Below the pieces are notes generated by a model. It did no database searches. It was not told the DNA's origin and saw only the letters and a list, made by a program, of their open reading frames with translations. The position numbers were made by a program, and so were the translations under genes. Positions 14,311-29,882 of a DNA stretch of 35,103 nucleotides are shown here, one piece after another. The first letter of the stretch is position 1. The number at the start of each line of letters is the position of its first letter. The stretch spans positions 1-35,103 of the forward strand of contig VBEG01000041.1 in NCBI GenBank assembly GCA_005882115.1. Direction: 5' to 3'. The DNA comes from Chloroflexota bacterium. Its GTDB lineage: Bacteria; Chloroflexota; Dormibacteria; Dormibacterales; Dormibacteraceae.

Positions 14311-14355
14311 GCAGTCACCCCTTTTGAAACCTTCGCCAAGGCGGCCGAAAGCAAA

Positions 14356-14385
14356 TGACAACGTTGTCAGAAGACAACGTTGTCA
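14356..14385. promoter_or_regulatory. Paired LacI-family operators in the divergent promoter region
   Basis: TGACAACGTTGTCA at 14356-14369 is a perfect 14-base palindrome, and GACAACGTTGTC at 14373-14384 repeats it with centres 16 bases apart. The central CG and the AACGTT core are typical of LacI/GalR sites. The pair lies between the binding-protein gene (minus) and the lacI-type gene (plus). TTGTCA at 14380-14385 could also serve as a -35 box for the regulator, with TAGACT about 19 bases downstream. Repression of both sides is inferred. Confidence 0.85.
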
Positions 14386-14462
14386 TTAATAGCACAGATC
14401 GGTTTAGACTGCAACAAGAGAATTTGGAGCGCCGCGGCGCGGCCCTCGAGCCGATTTCAGGA

Positions 14463-21997: not shown

Positions 21998-22474
21998 GTG
22001 ACCGCACGCTTCGCCAAGATTTATTCGGTGGTCGGTGCATTGATGCTGCTCGAGTTTCTTGCTCAGTTCTACACGATCGCCTCATCGGGGTTCACCACCG
22101 TCGCCGGCCAGATCGCAAACTCCGCGAACGGCAGCGAGACACGCTCAGCAGTACAGGAAGTAGACCTCTTCGCCGCGGCCCACGCGGTGATCGGAGTCTT
22201 CATCGTTCCACTCACCATCCTGGCCCTCATCGCCCTGTCCTGGCTTGCACGACTTCCGAGACGGACGAGGGTACTCACAAGCCTGCTCTTTCTCTTGTGG
22301 CTCTTCCAGTTCGGCCTGGCTTTCATAGGCTTCGCCGGAATCGCTCCGATCGCCGGGCTGCATGGCCTCAACGCTCTGGCCCTGGTTGGGCTCGGGATTT
22401 ACCTGGTGAGAAGGAACTGGGCGTTCGGGGGCCGCGGCTCCGCATCGACCGCCACTCTCACCGCTGGCCACTAG
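21998..22474 (+). CDS. Four-helix membrane protein (DUF6220-like)
   Basis: The 158-residue protein has four hydrophobic segments near 8-28, 58-82, 90-112 and 118-138. The ending IAGLHGLNALALVGLGIYLVRRNWAFG resembles small DUF6220-type proteins; this is a recollection, not a search result. The start is GTG at 21998 with AAGGAG about nine bases before it. A 79-base gap separates it from the preceding membrane protein, so it may have its own promoter. Function unknown. Confidence 0.7.
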   Translation: MTARFAKIYSVVGALMLLEFLAQFYTIASSGFTTVAGQIANSANGSETRSAVQEVDLFAAAHAVIGVFIVPLTILALIALSWLARLPRRTRVLTSLLFLLWLFQFGLAFIGFAGIAPIAGLHGLNALALVGLGIYLVRRNWAFGGRGSASTATLTAGH

Positions 22475-22505: not shown

Positions 22506-22573
22506 AACCCGCAAGTGTGCGCAATTGCGGGTTTCCAGTTCGCTGATTTGCCGCCACTGTGCGCACTGGCGGC
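22506..22573. repeat. Twin hairpins with identical loop core TGTGCGCA
   Basis: Hairpin 1 has arms AACCCGCAA (22506-22514) and TTGCGGGTT (22525-22533) and the ten-base loop GTGTGCGCAA. Hairpin 2 has arms GCCGCCA (22550-22556) and TGGCGGC (22567-22573) and the ten-base loop CTGTGCGCAC. The stems are unrelated, but the loop octamer TGTGCGCA is the same and holds the self-complementary TGCGCA. It lies between the convergent four-helix and ACT-domain genes; 22475-22609 holds no gene. Confidence 0.75.
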
Positions 22574-22609: not shown

Positions 22610-23023
22610 CTAGGCCCCTAACACCTCGGCGGCCCGCTCGTATTCGTCCGGAGCGACCCAGAGGATCATCCCGTAGCGCCCCGACCCAGCACTGGTCGCG
22701 GCCGCTGCGGTGATGTTGATGTTCGCCTCGGCGAGCTTCGCAGCCGTGTTCGTCACGGCACCTACGCGGTCGTCGCCCTGGATCAGAAACGCTCGCTTCG
22801 CATCGCTGAGTGTCAGACCGGCCCGCTCCGCCGCTTGGCGGAAAGAGGCGGGGTCTTCCGGTACGAGATCTACCTGGGATTGGCCGCCGCCGCTCGGAAA
22901 GCCAAGGTAGGCGAGCAGGTTTATCTCGCTCTCCTTTAGCGCGGACAGGATCCGCTCGCCTTCGCCCGGCTTGTCTGGAACGGTCACGTAGTAATAGTCG
23001 ACCCGCCGCACCGTGTCAGCCAT
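22610..23023 (-). CDS. Tandem ACT-domain protein
   Basis: The 137-residue protein consists of two ACT-like units: YYYVTVPDKPGEGERILSAL at about 8-27, and a second with LIQGDDRVGAVTNTAAKLAEANINITAAAAT near 80-110. ACT domains bind amino acids or other small ligands and often pair as dimers. No catalytic domain is attached, so it is probably a stand-alone sensor or regulatory subunit. The ATG at 23023 follows AAGGAG by seven bases; the GTG directly before it is too close. It is monocistronic by position. Confidence 0.85.
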   Translation of the reverse strand: MADTVRRVDYYYVTVPDKPGEGERILSALKESEINLLAYLGFPSGGGQSQVDLVPEDPASFRQAAERAGLTLSDAKRAFLIQGDDRVGAVTNTAAKLAEANINITAAAATSAGSGRYGMILWVAPDEYERAAEVLGA

Positions 23024-23083
23024 CACACTGCTCCTTCTCGAACCCGCCGGCCAATCACCACTTTACGCCGCTAGAGAATCACC

Positions 23084-29807: not shown

Positions 29808-29882
29808 AACTCTTCCCCATTCATGGGGAAGTACCCAACTCCTCCCCATTCATGGGGAGGTGGCCCGAAGGCCCGGAGGGGC
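29808..29882. repeat. Hairpin repeat, family A copies 2 and 3 in tandem
   Basis: Copy 2 (29808-29833) has arms CTTCCCCAT and ATGGGGAAG around TC. Copy 3 (29837-29882) has arms CCTCCCCAT and ATGGGGAGG, then a second hairpin around GGCCCGAAGGCCC. The two differ by a T-to-C and matching A-to-G change that keeps the pairing. Copy 3 matches copy 1 at 1625-1670 with few differences. The block lies between two convergent genes and runs into the 3' end of the methyltransferase frame. Confidence 0.8.

Follow-up and report, generated by a model that had tools for sequence, protein, structure and literature searches.

The two hairpins between positions 22506 and 22573 of the window (the whole stretch of DNA analysed here, 35,103 nucleotides from a Dormibacteraceae genome) are probably a solo copy of a repeat in a REP/RAYT-like DNA system that works with an unrelated AbiEi-like/DUF559 nuclease. 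The system appears to be a new relative of the bacterial REP/RAYT repeats, and the hairpins do not look like an RNA kissing loop, the role suggested for them in the initial annotation. Directly observed are a dispersed family of such elements, its geometry, its genomic position, its association with one gene family, the match between the pairs flanking a single gene, and the alternative states of one orthologous site.

The element (22508..22573, + strand) is a solo copy lying between two convergent genes and consists of two 24-bp units separated by an 18-bp spacer, which gives a period of 42 bp. Unit A (22506..22533, + strand) has a perfect 9-bp stem, AACCCGCAA-GTGTGCGCAA-TTGCGGGTT, with the core TGTGCGCA at 22516..22523. 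Unit B (22550..22573, + strand) has a perfect 7-bp stem, GCCGCCA-CTGTGCGCAC-TGGCGGC, is oriented as A, and carries the same core at 22558..22565. The spacer between the stems (22534..22549) belongs to a class that is fixed in length and variable in sequence throughout the family. Upstream, a membrane protein gene with a weak DUF6220 match (21998..22474, + strand) has its stop codon 33 nt before the element, and a convergent gene for an ACT-domain protein (22610..23026, - strand) ends 36 nt after it. The G014 ortholog of the ACT-domain protein (82% identity) likewise has palindromes behind its stop.

The initial annotation placed both hairpins correctly, with TGTGCGCA at the same register in each, and described their stems as completely different. 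Compared in register, however, CCGCAAGTGTGCGCAATTGCGG and CCGCCACTGTGCGCACTGGCGG, which lie 42 bp apart, agree at 18 of 22 positions and have CCGC...GCGG in common; this match was also recovered by the lag scan. Between the units, an A-T pair is replaced by C-G, a G.A mismatch by C.C and, just outside them, a C-G pair by G-C. The self-match exceeds that of all 300 shuffles (maximum 16). When the 135-nt intergenic stretch is shuffled 20,000 times under a first-order Markov model, two separate hairpins arise 43 times and two hairpins sharing an 8-mer loop never. The hairpins are not a product of chance. Nor are the ten central bases free loops as had been described, because in the predicted fold of each unit a TGCG tetraloop is closed by pairing between TG and CA. 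For the + strand of the whole region, the predicted fold favours pairing of unit A onto unit B. Rfam models match only tRNAs in the window, the 135-nt stretch has zero matches in plasmid DNA, and no remnant of a DUF559 gene lies beside the pair.

The expectation that the element would recur was borne out by dispersed relatives, but not by further stemmed copies of TGTGCGCA in this genome. This 8-mer occurs at 71 places there (59 for a reversed-pattern control), and each of the 69 sites outside the window has at most 5 paired bases. The initial annotation had held that a lack of further copies would count against it, so by its own measure the question would have been closed at this point. A relaxed consensus search across the genus instead reveals near-copies with the core TGCCGGCA, paired exactly 42 bp apart (for example, G014:C75:787/829 and G014:C198:5933/5975). 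A covariance model, R1, was built from nine pairs that include the window pair, and the score of 72.1 bits for the window element is therefore not evidence. R1 pairs are present in 13 of 17 genomes of the genus (E 0.1), in 18 of 42 genomes of the family (E 0.01), and at about nine places in the window's genome, for which statistics combine a 435-kb sample with whole-genome searches. Beyond the genus, no R1 pair was found in a 201-genome sample of the phylum at E 1e-4.

A constant property of these elements is their spacing. When exact TGCCGGCA pairs are collected from the genus with a gap left free between 18 and 48, 14 of 18 lie 42 bp apart, with the others at 43 (two), 35 and 30 bp. When noncoding DNA is scanned for self-similarity without a model, the peak again falls at a lag of 42. 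The palindrome itself differs between species and subfamilies, with the cores GCCGGC, TGTGCGCA, TCCGGA, GTATAC and GGCGCC sharing a constant geometry. Behind one glutamate dehydrogenase (GDH) gene, for example, different species carry different pair sequences with the same 42-bp period. The palindrome GCACGNCTGNCGNCANNCGTGC occurs in 58 forward copies in G007 and in 10 in G008 but is absent from the window's genome, and all 20 spacings measured for the G007-type palindrome (20 fetched loci) equal 42. Units of the main family are in the same orientation in 18 of 19 informative pairs and opposite in one; for the G007 type, the numbers are eight and four. By inspection, the flanks of 75 elements are mostly AAA/TTT or ATTCC/GGAAT. 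Several pairs hold orthologous positions in different species, which indicates that movement is not frequent. In one locus (L196, G014:C198, around 1500-1740), a longer tandem repeat (CCTCACCCCGACCCTCTCCCGCTGCGCGGGAGAGGGAGACCG) is present in several copies straight after a paired palindrome.

At two loci (G000:C17 and G009:C160), pairs lie on both sides of a single gene. Its product fuses an AbiEi-like region (models to 5e-16) to a DUF559 domain, and PF04480 (DUF559) is matched by all 23 member proteins. The nuclease-type D...ExD residues D239, E250 and D252, together with H256, are invariant in these proteins, and the endonuclease-like structure PDB 3hrl is a distant match to a family protein (E 7e-5). 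The G000:C17 gene is the only copy in the 435-kb sample of the window's genome. Relatives are present in 31 of the 42 genomes of the family, with several in each and many of them broken. None was found on plasmids or viral contigs. In G005, 17 matches to the DUF559 family, many fragmentary, suggest that the gene has repeatedly been gained and has decayed.

Pairs with the 42-bp period are strongly concentrated beside these genes. Among 34 genes, with at least 16 of 22 matches required and an N run in L391 left out, lag 42 is present in 26 of 64 flanks, compared with 15 of 748 flanks of control genes (p 2.5e-21), and every other lag is found in at most 3 DUF559-gene flanks. Eight genes have pairs on both sides, and 13 of the 34 have none beside them at the threshold used. 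Upstream pairs lie approximately 15-50 nt before the gene, and others are located downstream. The palindromes are gene-specific (GCCGGC, TCCGGA, GTATAC, GGCGCC, GCACG...CGTGC, GGCCCTTTGCCGGCAAAGGGCC and others). For a given gene, the upstream pair resembles the downstream pair with a score of 22.2, compared to 7.9 between genes, and palindrome similarity tracks protein similarity (Mantel r 0.25, 1 of 2000 permutations). The gene at G007:C338 carries exactly the palindrome that is dispersed across G007. A DUF559 gene is present in all 18 genomes with R1 pairs, and the 11 genomes without the gene hold none; the p value of 0.0008 for this co-occurrence ignores phylogeny and is confounded by shared ancestry. 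The nearest units to those of the window (20 of 22 positions) are of the CCACAAGTGTGCGCACTTGCGG type in G005, where another pair of this type lies directly upstream of a DUF559 gene. The window's TGTGCGCA type may likewise belong to such a gene.

Two further features of these loci were recorded. A motif, CTTAAC(A/G)GGCNGNGTTG, is conserved about 15 nt past the upstream pair at the start of most DUF559 genes, including those at L198:2178, L173:18033, L201:1413 and L199:1890; a promoter, a start region and the end of an element are candidates for its role. In the window's genome, L163:18664 and L170:1970 are solo pairs with the core GTCCGGAC, at 43 and 42 bp, respectively. The same palindrome flanks DUF559 genes in G010 and G016, and G000:C119:44168 holds a gene of about the identity of these two, whose flanks are predicted to carry GTCCGGAC. 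Other copies of the gene lie on G000:C140, C73 and C14.

One orthologous site has been captured in several states. The stop-to-stop gap between convergent GDH and ABC permease genes is empty in G019 (1 bp) and G008 (16 bp). It is 85-104 bp long with a solo pair, of differing sequence types, in G007, G014 (where the units are 41 bp apart), G063 and G064. In G000 and G009, the gap is 1087-1092 bp long and contains the DUF559 gene, alone between its neighbours, with two pairs. The 117-bp gap of G004 retains a decayed unit together with a gene remnant of 40 aa. These states resemble an empty site, a solo copy and a full element. No target-site duplication was found.

Pairs favour the ends of genes. 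Convergent gaps hold 31 of the 74 main-family pairs (background 11%) and divergent gaps hold 5 (background 31%). Of the 99 facing 3' ends, those of tRNAs included, 84 are no more than 40 nt away, versus 28% of random placements. Signals of selection on RNA structure are absent. Across 60 aligned elements, pairing shows no excess over column composition (851 versus 840 ± 8.8, with within-genome shuffles, which are conservative). There is no excess of transcribed-strand wobble pairs (G-T 34 versus A-C 44; 34 versus 36 at codirectional sites). At codirectional sites, T tracts have no direction (T downstream 129 versus A upstream 124), and a scan finds no T tract at the window element. Together, these results argue against an RNA-selected structure. 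Between subfamilies the core changes fully while the 42-bp spacing holds, which points to recognition at the level of DNA.

Several known systems share parts of this organization. REP and REPIN sequences, like the pairs described here, are short extragenic palindromes that are often paired, reside behind genes and are species-specific (PMC2817692, PMC3733652). RAYT genes are flanked by REPs whose types follow RAYT groups (PMC2817692), a counterpart to the gene family described above with its flanking repeats that track protein phylogeny. A Y1 (RAYT) transposase was ruled out as the partner: the HUH tyrosine transposase domain PF01797 is absent from all 17 genomes of the genus, whereas five control genomes were positive. 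The partner here is instead the AbiEi/DUF559 protein. Inspection of the 75 flanks reveals no constant GTAG or CGTC tag, and the pairs are mainly head-to-tail with a fixed 42-bp period, unlike known REP dimers, which are mainly head-to-head with spacers of 20-100 bp. Given these differences in transposase, tags and orientation, the system works like REP/RAYT but is not REP/RAYT.

In AbiE type IV toxin-antitoxin systems, as here, paired repeats lie upstream of a gene whose product has an AbiEi-like N-terminal region. An AbiEi-like gene is directly downstream of paired repeats in relatives of the window copy, but not at the window copy itself. The published operators consist of two inverted repeats of 23 bp separated by 3 to 13 bp (PMC7319586), whereas the repeats described here are each palindromic with a 42-bp period, the C-terminal part of the protein is a predicted nuclease, and many solo copies lie elsewhere. 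DUF559 belongs to the Vsr-like PD-(D/E)XK group, in which the Caulobacter protein VsrA has a functional link to YGCCGGCR sites (PMC12907096). Those sites include the commonest core found here, TGCCGGCA, although other subfamilies have other cores. In the literature searched, which excluded many subscription papers, no report linking DUF559 to palindromic repeats was found.

In the mechanism we favour, two near-identical palindromes would lie on the same face of the DNA, since 42 bp corresponds to about four helical turns, and would be bound as a pair by the AbiEi-like winged-helix region. Such binding is plausible, because known AbiEi proteins bind repeat pairs that precede the genes encoding them, although the published spacings differ. 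The DUF559 part, as a predicted PD-(D/E)XK (Vsr-like) nuclease, would act at or near the pair, and its activity may spread and remove copies as RAYT does for REPs. Alternatively, flanking pairs may recombine to leave a solo pair behind, as in solo LTRs. Copies at 3' ends would be retained because insertion there does little harm, and their hairpins may aid transcript ending. A more far-reaching version is put forward tentatively. The AbiEi-DUF559 protein may recognize, and mobilize or home with, its own 42-bp-period pair, leaving solo copies of the pair behind genes throughout a bacterial family while protein and palindrome co-evolve. It would then be a new class of chromosomal selfish element, equivalent to RAYT/REPIN but based on a PD-(D/E)XK nuclease.

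Other explanations account for parts of these observations. It is conceivable, if unlikely, that the pairs are immobile operators and that the AbiEi-like protein, by binding them, represses both its own gene and a set of other loci. The genes for Streptococcus agalactiae AbiEi and Rv2827c are preceded by paired 23-bp repeats to which their products bind (PMC7319586, PMC3985639), and the distance of about 15-50 nt to the DUF559 genes suits an operator. Yet pairs also occur downstream of these genes, the solo copies avoid divergent promoter regions and follow stop codons and the 3' ends of tRNAs, and known AbiEi repeats lie 3, 4 or 13 bp apart with no 42-bp period. The upstream pair alone could still serve as an autoregulatory operator. 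Somewhat harder to accept is that each pair is a tandem bidirectional terminator of convergent genes and the family a lineage-specific terminator type. Like tandem intrinsic terminators, the pairs place two stable hairpins behind genes, with A and T triplets at their flanks, and they fill convergent sites edge to edge. However, they are without directionality, T tract, covariation or wobble signal, and the window's genome holds only about ten copies. Nor does termination explain a repeated sequence at a strict 42-bp period, the within-pair match or the link to a gene. Termination of transcripts may be a side function of the pairs.

The other two explanations are far less probable. That the hairpin is an ordinary local duplication without function gains something from the resemblance between the A and B units of one element (0.790, versus 0.750 when permuted) and from tandem triplicate palindromes at G014:C205. 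This account is very doubtful, since the dispersed families already contradict it: the same geometry is built from unrelated sequences in many species and at many loci, beside one gene family. RNA kissing or dimerization through TGCGCA loops can scarcely be credited. TGCGCA is self-complementary and the cores GCCGGC, TCCGGA and GGCGCC are palindromic too, but the centre of each unit is self-complementary by construction, because the unit is a palindrome. The predicted folds engage part of the loop, or pair A with B on one strand, and the conserved loop with a covarying stem that would mark a kissing RNA is not what the alignments display; all three RNA-level tests were negative.

We know of no role assigned to solitary AbiEi-DUF559 fusion genes. 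If these genes own the palindromes that flank them, they gain a recognition sequence and a directly testable function. REP-type repeats that lack a RAYT, a puzzle already raised for the CGTC REPs (PMC3733652), would on the same condition acquire a candidate kind of enzyme. The approximately two dozen natural combinations of protein and palindrome would also form a data set for changes in winged-helix specificity.

The window contains two other repeats with symmetrical arrangements. Hairpins at 29812-29831 and 29841-29860 (CTTCCCCATTCATGGGGAAG and CCTCCCCATTCATGGGGAGG), 29 bp apart, keep the same inner sequence with changed outer pairs and are located immediately behind a stop codon between convergent open reading frames. 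A 29-bp lag is also found behind GDH in G021 (L339), and these two hairpins are possibly another pair geometry. At 14354-14387, two ACAACGTTGT palindromes form a 15-bp perfect inverted repeat (AATGACAACGTTGTCAGAAGACAACGTTGTCATT), followed by a further AACGTTGTC at about 14468; this repeat looks like a paired operator.
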